From positions 62,001-126,000 of the forward strand of contig CAJXLF010000003.1 in assembly GCA_913055805.1 (NCBI GenBank): a stretch of DNA of 64,000 nucleotides, in the 5' to 3' direction. The position numbers and the translations under genes are program-made. Below, piece by piece: positions 1,142 to 63,177 of the stretch. The stretch is from an uncultured Salinisphaerales bacterium (GTDB lineage Bacteria > Pseudomonadota > Gammaproteobacteria > Nevskiales > CAJXLF01). Numbering within the stretch: the first letter of the stretch is position 1; each line of letters begins with the position of its first letter. The notes below the pieces were generated by a model. The model made no database searches. It was not told the origin of the DNA and was given only the letters and a program-made list of their open reading frames with translations.

Positions 1142-1621
1142 TCAGCTCCTTGCTTTCCATGATTCGCTCAAGGCTTCAATCTGCGCCAGCATGCGACCCC
1201 AGCCGCCTTCTGTCTGTTCCACATAGTCGGACCATTCGGCACTCATTTCATGAACGATGGTTGCCACGCAGCCTTCCCCGTCAGCTTCCAGGGTCAGGGT
1301 TACAGTTGAAAGATTCTGCGTTTCCTCTTCCTCCGAGGTGAACCAGGTGAATACCAGCCTGTGCGGGCGCTCCATTTCCAGGTAGCTGCCCCAATGAATC
1401 GCCTCGCCTTCGTCGCGCATGTCGGAAAAGACAAACCGGCCGCCAGGTCGGGCATCCACTTCCACACGCCGCACATCGCCCGCCAGCCCTGCCGACTTCA
1501 GCGCCGCGGCCATCCAGCTGCGGATTCTTTCCGGCTCGAGCCAGGCGTCAAACACCCGCTCGGGCGAAACCGCCATCCGACGACTGGCACGCGCTGCAAC
1601 TGTGCCTTCTGCAATACTCAT
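1142..1621 (-). CDS. SRPBCC (AHSA1-like) protein
   Basis: 159 residues. The family pattern is RMAVSPERVFDAWLEPERI, VDARPGGRFVFSDM, HRLVFTWFTSEEE and VTLTLEADGEG, with the closing region GWGRMLAQIEALSES. The start at 1621 gives an ATGA overlap with the ArsR gene and has GGAGGAATC directly before it. A longer in-frame extension upstream is not credible because it would lie inside the ArsR gene. Probably a ligand-binding START-fold protein co-regulated with its repressor; the ligand is unknown. Confidence 0.87.
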   Translation of the reverse strand: MSIAEGTVAARASRRMAVSPERVFDAWLEPERIRSWMAAALKSAGLAGDVRRVEVDARPGGRFVFSDMRDEGEAIHWGSYLEMERPHRLVFTWFTSEEEETQNLSTVTLTLEADGEGCVATIVHEMSAEWSDYVEQTEGGWGRMLAQIEALSESWKARS

Positions 1622-1983
1622 GATTCCTCCTTGTTTTGCGTGGCTTTTGCCGCTTCGTCCTCGGCTTTGAGCGCAGCCTCCAACGCATCCAGGCTGCGGC
1701 TCCAGAATCGCTTGTAGTAAGCCAGCCATTCATGTACTTCGGCCAGCCGGGCAGCTTCAAGTTCACACCAGTGGGTTCTGCCTTGCACCCGTCGGCGCAC
1801 CAGTCCGGCTTTTTCCAGCACCTTGAGATGCTTGGAAGCGCCGGCCAGCGACATGGCGAAGGGCTCGGCCAGGTCGCTTACGCGCTGTCCACCCCTGCTC
1901 AGGCGGCGCAGCATTTCGCGGCGCGTGGGGTCGGCCAGGGCGCGGAAGATGTTGTCGAGATGTTCGGGATTTTGTTCAACCAT
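1618..1983 (-). CDS. ArsR-family transcriptional repressor
   Basis: 121 residues with a winged helix-turn-helix: IFRALADPTRREMLRRLS, then SDLAEPFAMSLAGASKHLKVL as the recognition region and a basic wing RRRVQGRTHWCEL. There is no CxC metal site of the ArsR/SmtB metal-sensor type, so this is the SdpR-like branch that pairs with AHSA1 proteins. It is first in the operon and overlaps the next gene by 4 nt. Repeated half-sites GGTTnAnTAT lie just upstream (1986-2034), suggesting autoregulation. The effector signal is unknown. Confidence 0.9.
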   Translation of the reverse strand: MVEQNPEHLDNIFRALADPTRREMLRRLSRGGQRVSDLAEPFAMSLAGASKHLKVLEKAGLVRRRVQGRTHWCELEAARLAEVHEWLAYYKRFWSRSLDALEAALKAEDEAAKATQNKEES

Positions 1984-1985
1984 AT

Positions 1986-2034
1986 GGTTGATTATAGTCG
2001 TGGTCCTGATATAGTCAACCCATTGGTTAAATAT
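1986..2034. promoter_or_regulatory. Candidate ArsR operator, three half-sites
   Basis: Three related half-sites lie directly upstream of the ArsR gene: GGTTGATTAT at 1986-1995, ATAGTCAACC at 2011-2020 and GGTTAAATAT at 2025-2034. The last two form an inverted repeat around CATT with 8 of 10 positions matching. The first and second also pair as an inverted repeat. AT-rich palindromes of this kind are normal ArsR targets. The position would block the ArsR promoter and could also affect the divergent operon at 2108. Confidence 0.6.
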
Positions 2035-2041
2035 TATCCCC

Positions 2042-2068
2042 TGTCGATTTCATGCAACGCGGTTCGAC
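2042..2068 (+). promoter_or_regulatory. Candidate ECF42-type promoter for the 2108-4730 operon
   Basis: TGTCGA at 2042-2047, a 17-nt spacer, and CGAC at 2065-2068, 39 nt from the ATG at 2108. The same element with the same spacer and almost the same distance to the gene is at 11399-11425, before the operon that encodes an ECF42-type sigma factor. As I recall, the ECF42 group uses TGTCGA at -35 and CGA/TC at -10. No transcription start data are available. Confidence 0.6.
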
Positions 2069-2107
2069 TAGTCTGTGACTAACCACTCAACCAAGGAGAT
2101 TAAAGTC

Positions 2108-2593
2108 ATGACTCAACCGATCCCGGAAGGCCACGAAGGCCTGATCCCCCACCTCGTCTGCGACCCCTGCCCCGAGGCTATCGAGTTCTACAAGAAGGCC
2201 TTCGGCGCCGAGGAACTGGGCCGTGTCGAGCAGCCGGGCACTGGCAAGATCATGCACGCTGCCATGCGCATCGACGGCCGCGTGCTGTTCCTGGTCGACG
2301 ACTTCCCCGAGTTCTGCATGGATGGCGAAGGCAAACCGAACTCGCCCAAGGCCCTTGGCGGTTCGCCTGTCACCATTCATCGTTATGTGCAGGACTGTGA
2401 TGCCGCCGTGAAACAGGCCGAACGGGCCGGCGCCAAGGTACAGATGCCGCCCGAAGACATGTTCTGGGGCGACCGCTATGCCGTGATCGTCGACCCCTTC
2501 GGACATTGCTGGTCGCTGGGCACGCATATCCGCGAAGTCAGCGAGGAAGAAATGGACGCCACCCTGGCGCAAATGGCGCCACAGGAAGCCTGA
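2108..2593 (+). CDS. VOC-family (PhnB-like) protein
   Basis: 161 residues of the glyoxalase/bleomycin-resistance fold: LIPHLVCDPCPEAIEFYKKAF, GKIMHAAMRIDG, LFLVDDFPEF, SPVTIHRYVQDCDAAVKQA and the end motif DMFWGDRYAVIVDPFGHCW. The FWGDR...DPFGHxW signature is typical of PhnB-like proteins. The ATG at 2108 has AAGGAG 9 nt upstream. It is the first gene of a plus-strand operon with a thiol-rich membrane peptide and two DUF899 proteins. Whether it binds metal or catalyses anything is not known. Confidence 0.87.
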   Translation: MTQPIPEGHEGLIPHLVCDPCPEAIEFYKKAFGAEELGRVEQPGTGKIMHAAMRIDGRVLFLVDDFPEFCMDGEGKPNSPKALGGSPVTIHRYVQDCDAAVKQAERAGAKVQMPPEDMFWGDRYAVIVDPFGHCWSLGTHIREVSEEEMDATLAQMAPQEA

Positions 2594-2616
2594 ACCAAGG
2601 GCAAAGGAGTAGAACC

Positions 2617-2763
2617 ATGTGTCCCGCATGTCTGACTACACTGGCCCTGGCCTCCGCCGGCAGCACTGCGGTCGGCGGGGTCTCGGCCCTGGCGATACGC
2701 CGCTATATCAACCGGCGCGCCGCCCGACCTGCCACTCCGCCCCCACCACGGAAGGAGCATTGA
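2617..2763 (+). CDS. Small CPAC-motif membrane protein
   Basis: A 48-residue product beginning MCPACLTTLALASAGS, with a CxxC at residues 2-5, one hydrophobic glycine/alanine-rich segment up to about residue 27, then a basic proline-rich tail (RRYINRRAARP). AAAGGAG lies 8 nt before the ATG, supporting translation. It sits between the VOC gene and the first DUF899 gene and ends 2 nt before the latter's start. The exposed CxxC next to CxxC-bearing DUF899 proteins suggests a thiol-redox role, but this is inference. No named family is claimed. Confidence 0.7.
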   Translation: MCPACLTTLALASAGSTAVGGVSALAIRRYINRRAARPATPPPPRKEH

Positions 2764-2765
2764 AA

Positions 2766-3539
2766 ATGGAAACGCCGAAAATTGTATCCCCCGAGGAATG
2801 GCGTGCCGCACACGCCGCACACCTGGCACAGGAAAAGGCCCTGACCCGCCAGCGCGATCAATTGCGCGCCGAGCGCCGCAATCTGCCATGGGTGAAAATC
2901 GAAAAGAACTATGTCTTCGACACCACCGACGGCAGGAAAACCCTGGCCGACCTGTTCGAGGGCCGCAGCCAGCTCATCATCAAGCACTTCATGTTCGGCC
3001 CTGGCTGGAGCGAGGGCTGCGTGGGTTGCTCCTTCGAAATGGACCACATTGAGGGCGCCCTGCAGCACCTGGAACAGCATGACGTGAAGTTCGCCGCCGT
3101 ATCCCGCGCCCCGCTGGCTGAAATCCTGCCTTTCAAGCGGCGCATGGGTTGGCAGTTCAACTGGGTCTCCTCCCACGGCAGCGACTTCAATTACGACTTC
3201 CACGTATCGTTCACCGCAGAAGAAATGAAGGCCGGAAAGGCGTATTACAACTTCCAGGAAACCGAAGTGCCGATTGAGGAATTTTCCGGCCTGAGTGCGT
3301 TCTACATGAATGAAGCCGGCGAGATTTTTCATACCTTCTCCGCCTACGGTCGCGGCGCCGAAGAAGTGCTGGGCACTTATATGTTGCTCGACATCACTGC
3401 CAAAGGTCGCAACGAAACCGGACCCAACTTCAACCTGACCGACTGGGTACGCCATCACGACCGCTACGGCTCTGGTGGCCACGTCGATTCACGTGGGCGC
3501 TACCAGGCGGACAGCGCTTCCTGCCACAAAGGAGATTGA
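2766..3539 (+). CDS. DUF899 thioredoxin-like protein (copy 1)
   Basis: 257 residues matching DUF899: VSPEEWRAAHAAHLAQEKALTRQRD, then ADLFEGRSQLIIKHFMFGP and GCVGCSFEMDHIEG, which carries the CxxC of a thioredoxin-like fold near residue 83. It ends WVRHHDRYG followed by a longer tail. The ATG at 2766 was chosen because GGAAGGAG precedes it and it follows the small CPAC gene closely. A second DUF899 gene lies at 3996; the two differ enough to be old paralogues. The family is presumed to be redox-active, but substrates are unknown. Confidence 0.88.
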   Translation: METPKIVSPEEWRAAHAAHLAQEKALTRQRDQLRAERRNLPWVKIEKNYVFDTTDGRKTLADLFEGRSQLIIKHFMFGPGWSEGCVGCSFEMDHIEGALQHLEQHDVKFAAVSRAPLAEILPFKRRMGWQFNWVSSHGSDFNYDFHVSFTAEEMKAGKAYYNFQETEVPIEEFSGLSAFYMNEAGEIFHTFSAYGRGAEEVLGTYMLLDITAKGRNETGPNFNLTDWVRHHDRYGSGGHVDSRGRYQADSASCHKGD

Positions 3540-3540
3540 T

Positions 3541-3975
3541 ATGAGTGAAGACGAAAAACAGATCAGGGCCCTGATCGACCGCTGGGTGGAGAAAGCCTGC
3601 GACCGCGATATCGATGCGGTCATGGCCTGCTATGCACCAGGCGTGGTGGCCTTCGACGCCATTGTCGCCCTGCAGTTCAAGGGTGCCGACGCCTACCGCA
3701 AGCACTGGGAATACTGCATGAGCTTCTCGGAGTCGATGGGTGACATGATCGTGAAGGTACCCGAAATGAGCATCACCATCGGCGGCGATGTGGCCTTTTG
3801 CCACTATCTCTCCAACTGCGGCTGCATCGATAAAGACGGCAAGGAACAGACCGGCTGGATGCGCGGCACGGTGTGCCTGCGCAAGATCGATGGCCAGTGG
3901 TTGATTGTCCACGAGCATTATTCCGCGCCTTTCGACCCGGAGAGCATGAACGCACTGACCGAACTGCAACCCTGA
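3541..3975 (+). CDS. SnoaL/NTF2-like protein
   Basis: 144 residues with the cone-shaped NTF2 fold of SnoaL-like / ketosteroid-isomerase-related proteins: IRALIDRWVEKACDRDIDAVMACYAPG, GADAYRKHWEYCM and the closing LRKIDGQWLIVHEHYSAPF. The start codon follows the previous stop by one nucleotide, with AAAGGAG before it. It sits between two DUF899 genes in one operon. Such proteins often act on small hydrophobic compounds, but no catalytic residue can be assigned with certainty. Confidence 0.87.
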   Translation: MSEDEKQIRALIDRWVEKACDRDIDAVMACYAPGVVAFDAIVALQFKGADAYRKHWEYCMSFSESMGDMIVKVPEMSITIGGDVAFCHYLSNCGCIDKDGKEQTGWMRGTVCLRKIDGQWLIVHEHYSAPFDPESMNALTELQP

Positions 3976-3995
3976 TACCTTCCTGAGGAGGCCCC

Positions 3996-4730
3996 ATGAG
4001 CGAAACTATGACTGCCCTGCCCGAAGTCGTTTCGAAAGAGGAATGGCTGAAGGCGCACGAGGAAATGCTGGCCAAAGAGAAGGCGCACAGCCGTGCACGC
4101 GACGCACTCAACGCCGAACGGCGCTGCCATCCAATGTACCGCATCGACAAGGATTATGCGTTTGACGGCCCGGACGGCAAGGTCAGTCTGCTCGATCTGT
4201 TCGACGGCCGCCGCCAGCTCATTCTCTACCACTTCATGTTCGGTCCCAATGCCGAGCAGGGCTGCGACGGCTGCTCCATGGTGGTCGACAACATGTGCCA
4301 CCCGGCACACCTGCATGCCCGCGATATCAACCTGGTGCTGGTGTCACGCGCCCCGCTGGAGAAAATCGAGCCGTTCAAAAAACGCATGGGTTGGGACCTG
4401 CCCTGGTACTCGTCATTCGGCAACGACTTCAGCTTCGATTTCGGTCTGGGACACAAGACCCTAAAGGCCGGCGAATACCAGGACGGCGAGATGTTCGGTA
4501 TGAGCGTCTTTATCCGCGACGACGAGGGCAACATCTACCGGACCTGGTTCACCCAGCACCGCGGCGTTGAATACCTGGGCACCAGCTTCAGCTTTTTCGA
4601 CATCGTCCCCTACGGCCGCCAGGAGGACTGGGAAGACTCGCCCGAAGGCTGGCCGAAAGGACCCCGCTATTCCTGGTGGCGGCATCACGACCGTTACGGC
4701 AAGGAAGATAAACCCTGTCATGACAAATGA
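3996..4730 (+). CDS. DUF899 thioredoxin-like protein (copy 2)
   Basis: 244 residues: VVSKEEWLKAHEEMLAKEKAHSRARD at the N terminus, LLDLFDGRRQLILYHFMFGP, the CxxC in GCDGCSMVVDNMC, and the family ending RYSWWRHHDRYG. The architecture matches the gene at 2766, with an extra cysteine shortly after the CxxC. A TGAGGAGG ribosome site precedes the ATG. It is the last gene of the operon. Having two DUF899 copies plus a CPAC peptide in one operon is unusual and points to a shared thiol-related process, which is inferred from context only. Confidence 0.88.
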   Translation: MSETMTALPEVVSKEEWLKAHEEMLAKEKAHSRARDALNAERRCHPMYRIDKDYAFDGPDGKVSLLDLFDGRRQLILYHFMFGPNAEQGCDGCSMVVDNMCHPAHLHARDINLVLVSRAPLEKIEPFKKRMGWDLPWYSSFGNDFSFDFGLGHKTLKAGEYQDGEMFGMSVFIRDDEGNIYRTWFTQHRGVEYLGTSFSFFDIVPYGRQEDWEDSPEGWPKGPRYSWWRHHDRYGKEDKPCHDK

Positions 4731-4738
4731 AGCCCTCT

Positions 4739-4833
4739 CCCTTCCTTAACTGAAGGAAGGGACGGGCCGGCCGGCGGCAGGAGGAGATTCAGGGTGTTGA
4801 AACCCTGTGGGGGAGGGGGTCCGACCGGCCCGT
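4739..4833. repeat. Nested hairpin element between convergent genes
   Basis: The interval between two convergent genes contains a perfect 9-bp inverted repeat (CCCTTCCTT / AAGGAAGGG, 4739-4761), a short AGGGT/ACCCT hairpin near 4791-4805, and an enclosing 9-bp pair ACGGGCCGG (4762-4770) with CCGGCCCGT (4825-4833). There is no U-run, so it is not a classic intrinsic terminator. It may end transcription from both sides or be a REP-like dispersed repeat. Confidence 0.55.
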
Positions 4834-4844
4834 GTTCCGAACGC

Positions 4845-6392
4845 TTATGACTCCTTTTTTGTCGCTGTGTTCCTTGAAAGATTTGATGCTTCCAGAATAT
4901 CGTCGCCGGAATCGTCATCCGATTTTCTCGCCGTCAGGCTCTGCGGCGCCCGCTCCGGCCAGCCACCGGCCACCGAACGGTAGACCGCCACCAGCGCCGT
5001 CGTGGCGCGGGTGCGGCTCTCCGCCAGCTGATCCTCGGCGCTGAGCAGCGAACGCTCGGCATCCAGCACCTGCAGGAAATCCGCGGCGCCGGCGTCGAAG
5101 CGCAGCCGCGCCATCTGCGCGGCCTTGGTGCTGGCCTCGGCGGCATCCTTCAGGTGCCCGCTTTCGTCACGCGTCTTGCGGTAGCGCACCAGGGCCGATT
5201 CGGCTTCTTCCAGTGCCCGCAGCACCGTGCCCTCGTAGGCCGCCAGCTGTGCATCGGTGGCCGCATCGCTGGCCGCAATGCGTGAACGTACCCGGCCCAG
5301 GTCGAGGAAGGCCCAGCTGATGGACGGCCCGAAGGCAAAGGTTTCGGTGGAACTGGAGAACAGATCACCCAGGCTGTCGGCCGCCGAACCATAGGCTCCG
5401 TTGATAGTCACGCGCGGAAACAGATCTGCCGTAGCCACGCCGATGCGTGCTGTCGCCGCCGCCAGGCGGCGCTCGGCGGCCTGGATGTCAGGCCGGCGGC
5501 GCAGCAGTTCGGCGGGTGTGCCGACCGCCACTGTCGCCGGCAGCACCGGCAGCGGCTGGCTGGCTTCCAGTTCCGCGCGCAGCTCGCCCGGCTGGCGGCC
5601 GTTGAGAACGGCCAGCCGGTGAATGGTGGCGGCGATATCCGCTTCCAGCGCCGGGATACGCGACAGCGTCGACTCAAGCTGAGCACGTGCACGTGCGGTA
5701 TCGAACTCGGTGCCGCGTCCGGCCTTCAGACGTAACTCGGTGAGGTTCAGGGTCTCGCGCTGGTTGGCGGCATTGTCCTGCGCGATGCGCAGCTGCTCCT
5801 GGTGGCCACGCAACTCGAAGTAGCTGCGTGCCACCTCGGCGGCAATGCTCACCTGCAAGGCGCGCAAGTCCGCTTCAGCCGCCGCTGCCTCGGCACGGCT
5901 GGACTCGATACTGCGGCGCACGCGGCCGAACAGGTCCAGCTCCCAGAAGGCCACCGCGCCGGCATCGTAGATTTCCGTTTCCAGGGCCTGGGCAGGCACG
6001 CCCGGCGCCTGGTCGGCGCTGGTCTGCGATTCGGTGTAGCCGCCCTCGGCGGTCACGGTCGGCAGGCGGTCATAACCCTGCAGTCGCGCCAGGGCGAAGG
6101 CCTGCTCCACCCGCGCCAGGGCGCCGCGCAGATCGTGGTTGGCAACCAGCGATTCCTGCACCAGCCTGGTCAGCACCGGGTCCTCGAAGCGCTGCCAGAA
6201 CTCGGCCACCGGTTCGGTGGTTTCGGTAGCGGCGTCGGCGCGCTCGAACTGCGCCGGCGCTGCGGGCTGGGGCCGCACATAGTCGGGACCGACCGCGCAG
6301 GCACTGAGCAGAAATGCCGAAAGTACAAGAAGGGTCACACCCCCTCCCCATCCCTCCCCCGTCAAGGGGGAGGGGGAAAGCAAGCTACGCAT
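4845..6392 (-). CDS. RND efflux outer-membrane lipoprotein (NodT/OprM family)
   Basis: 515 residues. A lipobox LLSAC is followed by AVGPDYVRPQPAAP, the classic start of mature NodT-family outer-membrane factors. The two repeated efflux-protein domains follow (DLFGRVRRSIESSRAEAAAAEADL and SWAFLDLGRVRSRIAASDAATDAQLAAYE). It forms the trimeric exit duct for the pump encoded just upstream. The ATG at 6392 overlaps the pump gene's end and has AGGAGGTG in front. Oddly, a GC hairpin repeat coding SPSPLTGEGWGGG lies between the start and the hydrophobic signal. A GTG at 6338 is a possible alternative start. Confidence 0.92.
   Translation of the reverse strand: MRSLLSPSPLTGEGWGGGVTLLVLSAFLLSACAVGPDYVRPQPAAPAQFERADAATETTEPVAEFWQRFEDPVLTRLVQESLVANHDLRGALARVEQAFALARLQGYDRLPTVTAEGGYTESQTSADQAPGVPAQALETEIYDAGAVAFWELDLFGRVRRSIESSRAEAAAAEADLRALQVSIAAEVARSYFELRGHQEQLRIAQDNAANQRETLNLTELRLKAGRGTEFDTARARAQLESTLSRIPALEADIAATIHRLAVLNGRQPGELRAELEASQPLPVLPATVAVGTPAELLRRRPDIQAAERRLAAATARIGVATADLFPRVTINGAYGSAADSLGDLFSSSTETFAFGPSISWAFLDLGRVRSRIAASDAATDAQLAAYEGTVLRALEEAESALVRYRKTRDESGHLKDAAEASTKAAQMARLRFDAGAADFLQVLDAERSLLSAEDQLAESRTRATTALVAVYRSVAGGWPERAPQSLTARKSDDDSGDDILEASNLSRNTATKKES
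6352..6374. repeat. GC-rich hairpin repeat inside a signal-peptide coding region
   Basis: CCCTCCCCC at 6352-6360 pairs perfectly with GGGGGAGGG at 6366-6374 around the loop GTCAA. On the minus strand it is read in frame as part of SPSPLTGEGWGGG in the N-terminus of the outer-membrane lipoprotein. Peptides of this composition are a known by-product of a dispersed palindromic repeat in some proteobacterial genomes, as I recall. In the mRNA it would fold a few codons after the start. Confidence 0.6.
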
Positions 6393-11398: not shown

Positions 11399-11425
11399 TG
11401 TCGATTCCAAGGTTCCACAGTCGAC
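11399..11425 (+). promoter_or_regulatory. Candidate ECF42-type promoter for the 11466-14122 operon
   Basis: TGTCGA at 11399-11404, a 17-nt spacer, and CGAC at 11422-11425, 40 nt before the ATG at 11466. The flanking bases CTGTCGATT and TCGACTA are shared with the element at 2042-2068. The operon it precedes ends with an ECF42-type sigma gene, which fits autoregulation. A 7-bp inverted repeat CGACTGT/ACAGTCG overlaps the element. Confidence 0.6.
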
Positions 11426-11465
11426 TATCAGGTAATGAGTCCCCGATAGCCAACAAGGAACCGTC

Positions 11466-11999
11466 ATGTTCAAGAAAATATCACTTGCGATTGTCATTCT
11501 GGCCGCGGCCGTTCTGCTCTACGCCAGCACGCGTCCCGATCATTCCCGCATTGAACGATCATTGCTCATTCAGGCGGCTCCCGAAGCCATCTTTCCTTAC
11601 CTGAACAGCCCGCGTGCCCATCAGACATGGTCACCCTGGGAAAACAAGGACCCCGACATGCAGCGTGATTACAGCGGTCCGCAGGCCGGTAAAGACGCCA
11701 AGTACGAATGGTCCGGCGACAGCAATATAGGCAAGGGGCGCATGACGGTGATTGAATCCAACCCGCCCAGCCAGGTACTCATTGCACTGGAATTTCTCGA
11801 ACCCATGCAGGCCAATAACACGGCCGAGTTCACCCTCCGCCCGGAAGCTGGCGGCACCGAAGTAACCTGGGCGATGTATGGACCGGCAAACTATTTGTCG
11901 AAACTGATGAGCCTGTTCCTCGATTTCGACGCAATGATCGGCAAGGAGTTCGAAAGCGGCCTGGCACAGCTCAAGCAGCAGGTCGAAAACGGCTCCTAA
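11466..11999 (+). CDS. Membrane-anchored SRPBCC (polyketide-cyclase-like) protein
   Basis: 177 residues: one N-terminal transmembrane helix (ISLAIVILAAAVLLYAST), then a SRPBCC domain with IERSLLIQAAPEAIFPYLNSPR, WSPWENKDPDM and GPANYLSKLMSLFLDFDAMIGKEFE. The WSPW..KDP pattern is common in START-fold proteins with this anchor. AACAAGGA precedes the ATG. It is first in the probable operon SRPBCC - VOC - DUF1428 - ECF42 sigma. It probably faces the periplasm and binds a hydrophobic ligand; no activity is assigned. Confidence 0.85.
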   Translation: MFKKISLAIVILAAAVLLYASTRPDHSRIERSLLIQAAPEAIFPYLNSPRAHQTWSPWENKDPDMQRDYSGPQAGKDAKYEWSGDSNIGKGRMTVIESNPPSQVLIALEFLEPMQANNTAEFTLRPEAGGTEVTWAMYGPANYLSKLMSLFLDFDAMIGKEFESGLAQLKQQVENGS

Positions 12000-12061: not shown

Positions 12062-12481
12062 ATGAAAATCAATCCCTATCTCTTTTTCGACGGCAACTGC
12101 AAGAAAGCCTTTGCCTTTTACGAACAAGCCATTGATGCCCGGATCGAGGACATGATGAGCTGGCGCGACGGCCCCATGGCCGATGACATGCCGGCTGAAA
12201 TGCTGGACAGGGTGATGCACGCCAGCCTGCTGCTGGGCGAAGAACGCATCATGGCTTCCGATGAAACACCGCCGGAAAACTTCAAACCCATGAACGGCAT
12301 TCGCGTGGTGATCAACGCCAACAGTGCGGAAGACGCCGAGCGATTCTTCGCCAACCTGTCCGAAGGTGGCGAGATCAATATGCCGATGGAGGAAACCTTC
12401 TGGGCCAAACGCTTCGGCATGCTCACCGACCGCTTCGGTGTACCCTGGATGGTGAACTGCGACAAGGAAGCTCAGGCGTGA
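12062..12481 (+). CDS. PhnB-like VOC-family protein
   Basis: 139 residues of the PhnB-like branch: INPYLFFDGNCKKAFAFYEQAI, MHASLLLGEERIMASDETPPE, GIRVVINANSAEDAERFFANL and the end motif ETFWAKRFGMLTDRFGVPWMVN. It is the third PhnB-like protein in the window after 158 and 2108. An ACAAGGAAAC ribosome site precedes the ATG, and the gene overlaps DUF1428 at 12478 by GTGA. The link with an ECF42 sigma factor suggests it is part of that sigma's regulon. Confidence 0.88.
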   Translation: MKINPYLFFDGNCKKAFAFYEQAIDARIEDMMSWRDGPMADDMPAEMLDRVMHASLLLGEERIMASDETPPENFKPMNGIRVVINANSAEDAERFFANLSEGGEINMPMEETFWAKRFGMLTDRFGVPWMVNCDKEAQA

Positions 12482-12840
12482 GTAAATATGTCGACGGCTA
12501 TGTGCTGGCCGTACCCAAAAGCAATGTCGAGCAATACCGCAAGCTTTCCGAGCAATGCGGCCGGGTGTGGAAAGAATACGGTGCGTTGGAATACATTGAA
12601 TGCGTGGCTGAAGATGTACCCGACGGCAAAGTCACCTCCTTTCCGCAGGCAGTCAAACTCAAGCCCGGCGAAGTCGTTGTGTTCTCGTGGATCATCTATG
12701 AGTCACGCGCCAAAAGAGACGAGGTCAATGATAAGGTGATGAAAGACCCCCGCCTGAAAGACATGATGCATGCAGAGAAAATGCCTTTTGACGGCATGCG
12801 TATGTTCTGGGGCGGTTTCGAAACCATAGTGGAACTCTGA
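12478..12840 (+). CDS. DUF1428 family protein
   Basis: 120 residues matching DUF1428: YVDGYVLAVPKSNVEQYRKLSEQCGRVWKEYGALEYIECVAEDVPDG, then PGEVVVFSWIIYESRAKRDEVNDKVMKDPR and KMPFDGMRMFWGGFETIVEL. It folds as a dimeric ferredoxin-like protein in known structures, with unknown function. It begins with GTG overlapping the preceding stop and ends 13 nt before the sigma gene. Such genes commonly travel with YCII, VOC and ECF42 genes. Confidence 0.9.
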   Translation: MSKYVDGYVLAVPKSNVEQYRKLSEQCGRVWKEYGALEYIECVAEDVPDGKVTSFPQAVKLKPGEVVVFSWIIYESRAKRDEVNDKVMKDPRLKDMMHAEKMPFDGMRMFWGGFETIVEL

Positions 12841-12853
12841 TCCAGGGCCTGCC

Positions 12854-14122
12854 ATGCCGATACGCCTGGGAGACACCAAGACCATACATGCCCAAATCGA
12901 GGCGATTTACCGCAATGATTCACGCCGTGTACTGGCCACGCTGATACGCTTGCTGGGCGACTTCGAACTGGCTGAAGAAGCTCTGCACGAAGCCTTCAGC
13001 GCCGCCATGAATCAGTGGCCGGTCGAAGGCCTGCCCGACAACCCGCGGGCATGGCTGGTCTCCACGGGCAGATTCAAGGCCATTGACGGCATACGCAAAC
13101 GCGCCCGTTTCGACAATTCGGCGCATGAAATCGCCGAGCATTTCGACGGCGACGATTCAGACGCCCCGGAACTCGACGAGCGGGCGGTCGAGGACGATCA
13201 TCTGCGCCTGATCTTTACCTGTTGTCACCCGGCGCTGGCGCCGGATGCCCAGGTCGCGCTGACCCTGCGCGAAGTCTGCGGCATGACTACAGAAGAAATC
13301 GCCAGCGCCTATCTGACCAGCCCATCTACCCTGGCGCAGCGCATCGTGCGGGCCAAGGGCAAAATCCGCGATGCCGGTATTCCCTACGAAATCCCCGCGG
13401 CGCAGGATCTGCCCGAACGTCTCGACAGCGTCTTGCAGGTGGTCTATCTCATCTTCAATGAGGGTTATTCGGCATCGGCCGGCGACGAGGTCCTGCGGCA
13501 TGATCTCTCGACCGAGGCCATCCGGCTGGCCAAACAACTCGTGTCCCTGTTGCCCGAGCCAGAGGCCCTTGGCCTGCTGGCGCTGATGCTGCTGCATGAC
13601 GCACGGCGCGACGCCCGCCGCACCATTGATGGCGATGTGATTCTGCTGGACGAGCAGGACCGCAGCCTCTGGGACCAGACACAGATCGCCGAGGGCATCC
13701 GCCTGATCGAACAGGCCCTGGGTTCGAAACGTTTCGGCCCCTACACTCTGCAGGCCGCCATTGCCGCCGTACACTGCGAGGCGAGCAACGCAGAAGACAC
13801 CGACTGGCCACAGATCGTGGCGCTGTACGACGTCTTGCTGCGTATCCAGCCGAATCCGGTGATCGAATTGAACCGCGCCGTAGCCCTGGCCATGCGTGAC
13901 GGACCCGAAGCAGCACTGCGGCGGATTGATGCCATCCTGGCCAGTGGTGATCTGGCCGATTATCACCTTGCCCATGCCGCGCGCGCCGACATGCTGCGCC
14001 GCCTGGGCAAGCACGGGGAAGCCCGGAGCGCCTACCAACAAGCCCTGTTGCTGGTGCGCCAGGCGCCGGAACGCCGCTTCCTGGAACGCCGCCTGGCAGA
14101 GCTTCCAGTCAAGGCCTCTTGA
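12854..14122 (+). CDS. ECF42-type RNA polymerase sigma factor with long C-terminal extension
   Basis: 422 residues. Sigma region 2 spans about 15-85 (LIRLLGDFELAEEALHEAFSAA, ARAWLVSTGRFKAIDGIRKR) and region 4 about 115-170 (LIFTCCHPAL, ALTLREVCGMTTEEIASAYL). A roughly 240-residue extension follows with LIFNEGYSAS, EAIRLAKQL, LALMLLHDARRDAR, FGPYTLQAAIAAVH and a TPR-like end. These features identify ECF42 (DUF6596) sigmas, which lack an anti-sigma gene and use the extension for control. It is likely to direct transcription from the TGTCGA-N17-CGAC sites at 2042 and 11399, including its own operon. The activating signal is unknown. Confidence 0.93.
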   Translation: MPIRLGDTKTIHAQIEAIYRNDSRRVLATLIRLLGDFELAEEALHEAFSAAMNQWPVEGLPDNPRAWLVSTGRFKAIDGIRKRARFDNSAHEIAEHFDGDDSDAPELDERAVEDDHLRLIFTCCHPALAPDAQVALTLREVCGMTTEEIASAYLTSPSTLAQRIVRAKGKIRDAGIPYEIPAAQDLPERLDSVLQVVYLIFNEGYSASAGDEVLRHDLSTEAIRLAKQLVSLLPEPEALGLLALMLLHDARRDARRTIDGDVILLDEQDRSLWDQTQIAEGIRLIEQALGSKRFGPYTLQAAIAAVHCEASNAEDTDWPQIVALYDVLLRIQPNPVIELNRAVALAMRDGPEAALRRIDAILASGDLADYHLAHAARADMLRRLGKHGEARSAYQQALLLVRQAPERRFLERRLAELPVKAS

Positions 14123-61806: not shown

Positions 61807-63177
61807 ATGCTGACAGTTATCGATCCAAGTAACGGCGAAGTCATTCGCGAAGTCACGCCACTGAGCACTGCCGACATGTATGGCGTCATGGGCAAAGCCG
61901 AAGACGCCTACCGTGAGTGGCGGCGAAGCAGTTTTTCTGATCGCGCTGAAATCCTGTGCAAGGTCGCTGCGCATATGCGCGAGCACATGGACGAACTGGC
62001 GCCGCTGATGACCGAGGAAATGGGCAAGCCCATCAAGGAAGCACGTGGCGAAGTGGAAAAAGCGGCCTGGTGCGCCGAGCACTACGCCGCGCATGCCGAG
62101 GACTATCTGGCCACCGAGTACATTGAATCGGATGCCACCCGCAGTTACGTGCAGTACCTGCCGCTGGGTCCGGTGCTCGGCATCCTGCCCTGGAACGCGC
62201 CCTTCTGGCTGGCCTTCCGTTTTTGCGCGCCGGCGCTGATGGCTGGCAATACCTGTGTCATGAAGCATGACCCGCATGTACCGGCCTGCGCTCAGGCCAT
62301 CGCCGATGTCTTCAAGGCCGTGGGTGCACCGGACGGCGTCATGCAGAACCTGCTGCTGGAAACCCCACAGGTGGAAAACGCCATTCGCGACCCGCGCATC
62401 CAGGCCGTATCTTTCACCGGCTCGGACCGGGGCGGCGCCGCCGTGGCGGCCATCGCCGCTTCGGAAATCAAGCCGGCGGTGCTGGAACTGGGCGGCTCGG
62501 ACCCCTGCATCGTGCTGGCCGACGCCGATCTGGAAACAGCAGCCGACATCATTACCCTGTCGCGCATCATCAATGCCGGCCAGTCCTGCATTGCCGCCAA
62601 GCGCATCCTGGTGGAAGCGCCGGCTTACGAACAGATGGTCGATCTTATTAAAGAGCGCATGGCCAGGCTCAAGCTGGGCGACCCACGGGAGGAAACCACT
62701 GACATCGGCCCCCTTGCCCGCGAGGACCTGCGCGACAACCTGCATCGCCAGGTACGTGAAACCATCGATGCCGGCGCACGCTGCCTGCTGGGCGGCGAAC
62801 TGCCGGACGGCCCCGGTTTCTACTACCCGCCCACACTGCTGGCCGATGTCAGTGAGGACATGACCGCAAGCTGCGAGGAAACCTTCGGGCCGGTGGCGGT
62901 GATGACCCCGGTCAGGGACGCCGACCAGGCACTGGCTATGGCCAACGACACCCGCTACGGCCTGGCGGCGGGCCTCTGGACCACCGCCGAGCGCGGTGAA
63001 GCCTTGGCGCGTGACATCGAAGCGGGCCAGGTTGCGATCAACGGCATCGTCAAAACCGATCCACGCCTGCCCAGCGGCGGCATCAAGCGCTCCGGCTACG
63101 GCCGCGAACTCGGCCCGCACGGCATCCGCGAATTCGTCAATGCGCAGCAGGTCTGGGTCGGGCCAAAGCAGGCATAG
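61807..63177 (+). CDS. doeC: Aspartate-semialdehyde dehydrogenase of ectoine catabolism
   Basis: 456 residues of the NAD(P)-dependent aldehyde dehydrogenase superfamily: LGILPWNAPFWLAFR, FTGSDRGG, catalytic Glu in VLELGGSDPCIVL (about 227) and catalytic Cys in NAGQSCIAAKRI (about 261), and EETFGPVAVMTPV. Generic annotation would be succinate-semialdehyde dehydrogenase; position after doeA supports DoeC, which oxidises aspartate semialdehyde to aspartate. It starts 2 nt after the doeA stop. Confidence 0.87.
   Translation: MLTVIDPSNGEVIREVTPLSTADMYGVMGKAEDAYREWRRSSFSDRAEILCKVAAHMREHMDELAPLMTEEMGKPIKEARGEVEKAAWCAEHYAAHAEDYLATEYIESDATRSYVQYLPLGPVLGILPWNAPFWLAFRFCAPALMAGNTCVMKHDPHVPACAQAIADVFKAVGAPDGVMQNLLLETPQVENAIRDPRIQAVSFTGSDRGGAAVAAIAASEIKPAVLELGGSDPCIVLADADLETAADIITLSRIINAGQSCIAAKRILVEAPAYEQMVDLIKERMARLKLGDPREETTDIGPLAREDLRDNLHRQVRETIDAGARCLLGGELPDGPGFYYPPTLLADVSEDMTASCEETFGPVAVMTPVRDADQALAMANDTRYGLAAGLWTTAERGEALARDIEAGQVAINGIVKTDPRLPSGGIKRSGYGRELGPHGIREFVNAQQVWVGPKQA

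Follow-up and report, generated by a model that had tools for sequence, protein, structure and literature searches.

An element at positions 2042-2070 of the stretch of DNA analysed here (the window: 64,000 nucleotides [nt] of an uncultured Salinisphaerales bacterium, positions 62,001 to 126,000 of contig CAJXLF010000003.1, or G000:C3:62001-126000; source assembly GCA_913055805.1, a 3.38-Mb draft in 21 contigs) is in our judgment, at a probability of roughly 0.87, a promoter for the one ECF42-type sigma factor that this genome encodes. As read from the sequence, it would drive a five-gene operon, VOC-CPxC-DUF899-SnoaL-DUF899, as one of at least nine units with the same boxes. The kind of regulator is already known; the regulon is larger than first thought. 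Coordinates of all features are collected in Table 1.

The exact form of the motif, TGTCGA-N17-CGACTA (12 defined bases), has two copies in the window, one at 2042-2070 and the other at 11399-11427, and none in any of 100 dinucleotide shuffles. When up to two mismatches were allowed, the window held 3 matches against 3.35 expected, which is chance level and leaves the exact form as the sole informative one. An earlier note on this DNA had paired these two elements and held that two such matches were unlikely to arise by chance, a judgment borne out by the shuffles. The likeness that it described was also confirmed: the boxes and the 17-nt spacer are equal, the end of CGAC lies 39 nt from the ATG at 2042 and 40 nt from it at 11399, and the flanks CTGTCGATT and TCGACTA are common to both. 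Boxes and spacing agree with mapped ECF42 promoters. RpoE10 of Sinorhizobium meliloti belongs to group ECF42, and two of the promoters printed for it read TGTCGG-N17-CGTC (PMC6180224), compared with TGTCGA-N17-CGAC here. With the offset borrowed from the sole RpoE10 promoter that is printed with its start base (PMC6180224, Table 1), transcription from 2042-2070 would be predicted to begin near 2077.

In the whole genome, the exact motif has ten copies and the reversed control none, and nine of the ten end at a distance of 28 to 49 nt from a downstream start codon. The tenth, on C17, showed no start codon with a ribosome site behind it. The description of a two-part regulon in the earlier note thus proved too small, given at least nine promoters in the genome. 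Eight further sites differ from the motif by one mismatch. Two of these, both reading CGATTA, were kept out of the regulon count; one is upstream of a glutathione S-transferase gene by 49 nt (C10:140414; L092), the other upstream of an AHSA1 gene by 125 nt (C13:1636; L093). Four others (two on C8, one each on C4 and C19) are not followed by a gene of those kinds, and the remaining two lie at C2:27143 and C13:25939. A looser ten-base form, TGTCGA-N16-18-CGAC, was rejected as too loose, having 47 matches in the genome and 42 when reversed. That near parity is what a chance match would predict. The ten-to-none ratio of the 12-base form, the placement of nine copies before genes of a few families, and the retention of a shorter form of the motif before DUF899 genes across several genera leave chance with hardly any probability.

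The sigma factor presumed to read these promoters is encoded in the window by the last gene of the operon behind the second element. It has 422 residues, with Sigma70_r2 at 19-85 and Sigma70_r4_2 at 120-170 (Pfam), DUF6596 at 189-288 (6.1e-37), and tetratricopeptide repeat (TPR) models at 344-405 that fall below their curated cut-offs. A review (PMC8999054) describes ECF42 sigma factors as extended at the C terminus by some 200 TPR-rich residues and as having a YCII-related neighbour; the extension of the window protein fits that definition. Its adjoining genes encode SRPBCC, VOC, and DUF1428 proteins and, on the 3' side, a FAD/NAD-binding oxidoreductase; no anti-sigma gene is among them. The sigma factor's own operon contains no YCII gene. 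Two YCII (YCII/DGPF) genes lie about 12 kb away, each with its own motif.

Conservation of the motif before DUF899 genes was assessed at the best 80 of at least 570 confirmed DUF899 loci, grouped by the genus names in their record titles, by searching for TGTCG(A/G)-N-CG(A/T)C up to 300 nt upstream (the full 300 nt were present at 78 of the 80). With a spacer of 17, the motif was found at 18 loci; any other spacer from 10 to 25 gave at most 3, and the controls gave at most 1 on the other strand, at most 1 with one shuffled pattern, and 0 with the reversed pattern at spacer 17. Loci from Pseudomonas, Stutzerimonas, Halopseudomonas, Halomonas, and Billgrantia account for most of this signal (16 of 20, compared with 2 of the 60 others, one Sulfotelmatobacter and one Rokubacteria), and two more of the 20 have a version with a 16- or 18-nt spacer. 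The 16 are not all independent, because nine are Pseudomonas. An ECF42 sigma gene lies within seven of the 80 loci, and motif, arsR, and sigma are all absent in 30. All 50 tested genomes behind these loci carry an ECF42 sigma, compared with 46 of 85 genomes of the organism's own order and 33 of 370 of its class (the window's genome is included in both samples); since the 50 were chosen by DUF899, this is co-occurrence and not proof.

The motif also accompanies the sigma factor itself. Of 20 ECF42 neighbourhoods selected manually among the ECF42-bearing genomes of the order, 19 contain the 17-nt-spaced motif and 3 the reversed pattern. One genome (G072) has the motif 79 nt before a DUF899 gene, with YCII genes and an ECF42 sigma downstream; in another (G043) it lies 31 nt before a CPxC peptide gene, with two YCII genes, DUF1428, and an ECF42 sigma (68% identity to the window sigma) next in line. 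On the Pseudomonas aeruginosa plasmid NZ_CP133752.1 it stands 42 nt before a YciI gene, after which come a CPxC peptide, DUF899, and an ECF42 sigma (67% identity to the window sigma, 52% for DUF899). The proposal in the earlier note of an ECF42-type promoter before a DUF899/CPxC operon is therefore supported. The motif context, the match to RpoE10, the conservation before DUF899 in several genera, and this plasmid array make it very probable that the operon at 2108-4730 belongs to the ECF42 targets.

Two observations bear on the spread and form of such arrays. Plasmids pWM98B (L260, Acinetobacter nosocomialis) and pMKPA34-2 (L261, P. aeruginosa) share an array of an ECF42-like sigma, two YciI, an NTF2-like protein, four VOC/glyoxalase proteins, and a MATE efflux protein, in which the 17-nt-spaced motif ends 46 nt before the first YciI gene and 43 nt before the NTF2-like gene. 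The sequence around the -10 box varies from genome to genome in the ECF42 neighbourhoods L238-L257 (CGACTA, CGACCA, CGACGT, CGTCGT), a variation that may follow sigma lineages.

Several results weigh against the assignment to ECF42. DUF899 is absent from the RpoE10 targets named in PMC6180224. In the 80-locus test, the reversed control rises to 5 with a spacer of 13, and outside the Pseudomonas- and Halomonas-type genera most DUF899 loci lack the motif, arsR standing upstream instead at 28 of the 80. Six other genomes of the order have a strong DUF899 match, of which one has the motif, one an ArsR-SRPBCC-DUF899 arrangement, and four neither in the stretch examined; G072, not one of these six, adds a case with the motif. 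Across the order apart from the window's genome, the exact motif is near chance (19 copies, 12 reversed, in 84 genomes) and was rejected as an order-wide feature. It is rarer than its reverse in the class sample (59 places compared with about 93 in 369 other genomes, by hand count), so that we rely on clustering and gene context rather than on totals.

Three genomes of the class sample also weigh against it. G159, G207, and G318 carry exact motifs (2, 5, and 4, respectively) together with genes of the same families, but have no DUF6596 (PF20239) match. A search of the three with the whole sigma found distant sigma factors only, plus a 34-residue piece in G207 that resembles the ECF42 C terminus. 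The sigma gene may have been lost, it may fall within a gap of the assembly, or these promoters may be served by a different sigma factor. The last of these would extend to the window if a different ECF sigma used the element and the ECF42 sigma were a mere neighbour, and motifs retained without a detectable ECF42 sigma are what that account would expect. However, the three assemblies are drafts of 160 to 280 contigs, and the near-constant presence of the motif in the ECF42 neighbourhoods of the order points to the ECF42 sigma. In the class sample, at least two exact motifs occur in 5 of the 32 other genomes with ECF42 and in 4 of the 337 without it (Fisher p 0.0004, hand tally). The ECF41 promoter given in PMC6180224, moreover, reads TGTCAC and not TGTCGA. 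We consider use of the element by another ECF sigma improbable.

A different alternative arises from the divergent arsR gene, whose product might mainly control the operon through the palindrome at 2016-2028, with the ECF42 site secondary or idle. In its favour are two palindromes in the intergenic region and the 28 DUF899 loci at which a same-strand arsR lies upstream, all of them lacking the motif within 300 nt of DUF899; DUF899 genes can thus stand under ArsR. The palindrome pattern matches the window 3 times, with the first palindrome contributing a match on each strand, against 0.41 expected. A narrow version of the pattern was found at 2 of the 28 loci, and a wider one, built after the sequences had been viewed, near the arsR starts of 10 of 23 relatives, with a background of 0.01 per stretch. 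The palindromes nevertheless flank a sigma70-like promoter directed at arsR, as judged by eye, and no other promoter on the DUF899 side was noticed, although no scan was aimed at one. Nor is the spacing between the palindrome and the -35 box of the ECF42 promoter conserved. This is 26 nt in the window and 33 nt in G041, a genome from another family of the order that has similar palindromes near arsR; there, ArsR-SRPBCC-VOC faces the motif and the sigma factor's own operon, with VOC, DUF1428, and the ECF42 sigma. Main control by ArsR seems to us less probable even than control by another ECF sigma.

The back-to-back layout of arsR and ECF42 promoters (1977-2070 in the window, L080 1430-1530 in G041) does recur in these two families, with different genes on the ECF42 side; apart from G041, the 19 motif-bearing ECF42 regions of the order showed no ArsR match. 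The unequal distances offer no case for a mechanism common to the window and G041. An ArsR input to the ECF42-side operon is possible. A more specific idea, that ArsR at 2016-2028 and the ECF42 sigma at 2042 form a two-input switch with joint control of back-to-back operons for small redox and ligand proteins, in which the ArsR ligand would release one side and tune the other, is speculative, and we think it unlikely.

Control of the operon by the ECF42 sigma would place the genome's only two DUF899 genes under this regulator. The operon that the earlier note described is present, and its first gene belongs to the VOC/glyoxalase superfamily. Both DUF899 proteins far exceed the curated PF05988 cut-off of 27 bits (320.8 and 286.3). 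By sequence, DUF899 has no match in the PDB better than E = 0.39. A structural model (predicted local distance difference test score 85.8), in contrast, was matched by Foldseek to peroxiredoxins and ResA-type thioredoxins in the PDB, with a best E of 9.2e-06 and 177 matches at E ≤ 0.001, the TM-scores by query length being about 0.3 to 0.45. The CxxC cysteines, C85 and C88, are invariant in 27 aligned sequences, and a redox role for DUF899 would be consistent with the model.

The CPxC peptide has no Pfam match up to E = 1. We coined the name CPxC peptide group for peptides with an MCPxC start and a glycine-rich hydrophobic stretch that are encoded beside DUF899 or ECF42, and the 2617-2763 peptide has all of these features. 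M1, C2, P3, C5, G15, G20, and G21 are invariant in an alignment of 10 sequences; the peptide of the P. aeruginosa plasmid, found after that alignment was made, lacks the glycine pair at 20-21. In the class sample, scoring at most 18 first-look candidates per genome, a procedure that may miss some, recovered the peptide in 4 of 370 genomes, namely that of the window and the same G159, G207, and G318, each with at least two motifs.

These elements suggest how the system could work. The signal and binding partners of ECF42 sigma factors are described as open in the review (PMC8999054). Sensing would fall to the TPR-like C-terminal extension, a role already proposed for it in ECF42, and the active sigma factor would bind the promoters and, with RNA polymerase, turn on the genes for a group of small proteins: YCII, VOC, SRPBCC, DUF1801, DUF1428, DUF899, and the CPxC peptide. 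The purpose of the induced set is perhaps redox or xenobiotic defence. DUF899, with its predicted peroxiredoxin-like fold, and the CPxC peptide would add an assayable redox component to the ECF42 regulon, and a promoter this short and strict makes ECF42 regulons readable from genomes.

Table 1. Features of the window and related motif sites (window positions unless a contig, genome, or locus is named)
Feature	Position	Strand	Remarks
ArsR-family regulator, divergent	1618-1983	-	heads ArsR-SRPBCC-SRPBCC-VOC run, 1983 down to 158
Palindrome CAACCATATGGTT	1977-1989		putative ArsR operator
Palindrome CAACCCATTGGTT	2016-2028		putative ArsR operator
Sigma70-like promoter, TTGACT-N16-TATAAT	between the two palindromes	-	read by eye
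Predicted ECF42-type promoter	2042-2070	+	-35 TGTCGA 2042-2047, 17-nt spacer, -10 CGACTA 2065-2070
VOC/glyoxalase-superfamily protein	2108-2593	+	first gene of operon; Pfam PF00903, 5.9e-15
CPxC peptide, 48 residues	2617-2763	+	MCPAC and hydrophobic stretch; from translation, relatives, hydrophobicity
DUF899 protein	2766-3539	+	PF05988, 5.7e-96; predicted thioredoxin/peroxiredoxin-like fold, invariant CxxC
SnoaL/NTF2-like protein (SnoaL_3)	3541-3975	+	PF13474, 1.4e-19
Second DUF899 protein	3996-4730	+	PF05988, 2.2e-85
Perfect 9-bp inverted repeat	4739-4761	+	after operon, no T run; possible 3' hairpin; read by eye
Second predicted ECF42-type promoter	11399-11427	+	precedes sigma factor's own operon
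SRPBCC protein	11466-11999	+	profile match
VOC/YjdN-like protein	12062-12481	+	profile match
DUF1428 protein	12478-12840	+	profile match
ECF42-type sigma factor	12854-14122	+	regions 2 and 4, DUF6596 (only match in genome), TPR-like C terminus
Exact motif	C3:61312		precedes YCII gene, just left of window
Exact motif	C3:61739		starts 262 bases left of window; precedes YCII gene
Exact motifs	C16		precede OmdA/DUF1801 gene and two AHSA1 (AHSA1/SRPBCC) genes
Exact motifs	C9, C10		precede two VOC genes
Exact motif, tenth	C17		within 479-residue open reading frame
Motif and target-gene loci, no sigma detected	G207 L208, L231; G318 L209; G159 L217, L218

The claim of the earlier note that the regulon extends beyond DGPF proteins holds in part. 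DUF899, CPxC, and NTF2-like proteins as ECF42 targets were not found in the literature searched, which did not include the main ECF42 target papers and in which no search was aimed at CPxC. An extension beyond DGPF as such had already been reported for RpoE10, whose named targets include glyoxalase-like proteins and a protein with a hydrophobic-ligand domain (PMC6180224). At S. meliloti SMb20475-SMb20474, the gene behind the mapped promoter encodes a VOC protein, and the open reading frames of at least 90 residues listed at 2700-5500 include no DUF899. PA1351 of P. aeruginosa, which we take to be an ECF42-group sigma factor, partly because a table in PMC6085468 matches it to a Xanthomonas sigma, had no function assigned as of 2013, according to PMC3832394.

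Among the closest known systems is that of RpoE10 (PMC6180224): the boxes can be written jointly as TGTCG(G/A)-N17-CG(T/A)C, both systems have glyoxalase-like and hydrophobic-ligand targets, and a YCII gene stands beside the RpoE10 gene, with no anti-sigma found. The window system differs in DUF899, CPxC, and NTF2-like proteins, which are not among the named RpoE10 targets, and in its nine units with a motif whose -10 box reads CGACTA. The TPR-rich extension and the YCII-related neighbour are shared with the ECF42 sigma factors of Streptomyces venezuelae and with ECF-10 of Pseudomonas putida, a likeness drawn from a review (PMC8999054) and not from target lists. The divergent ArsR-SRPBCC-SRPBCC-VOC run, with similar palindromes near arsR, resembles ArsR-SRPBCC operons, although the DUF899 genes of the window lie on the ECF42 side, outside the arsR operon. 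Finally, plasmid NZ_CP133752.1 has an identical promoter motif and the same gene families in one array, whereas here YCII, DUF899/CPxC, and the sigma factor are distributed over separate units, each with its own motif.

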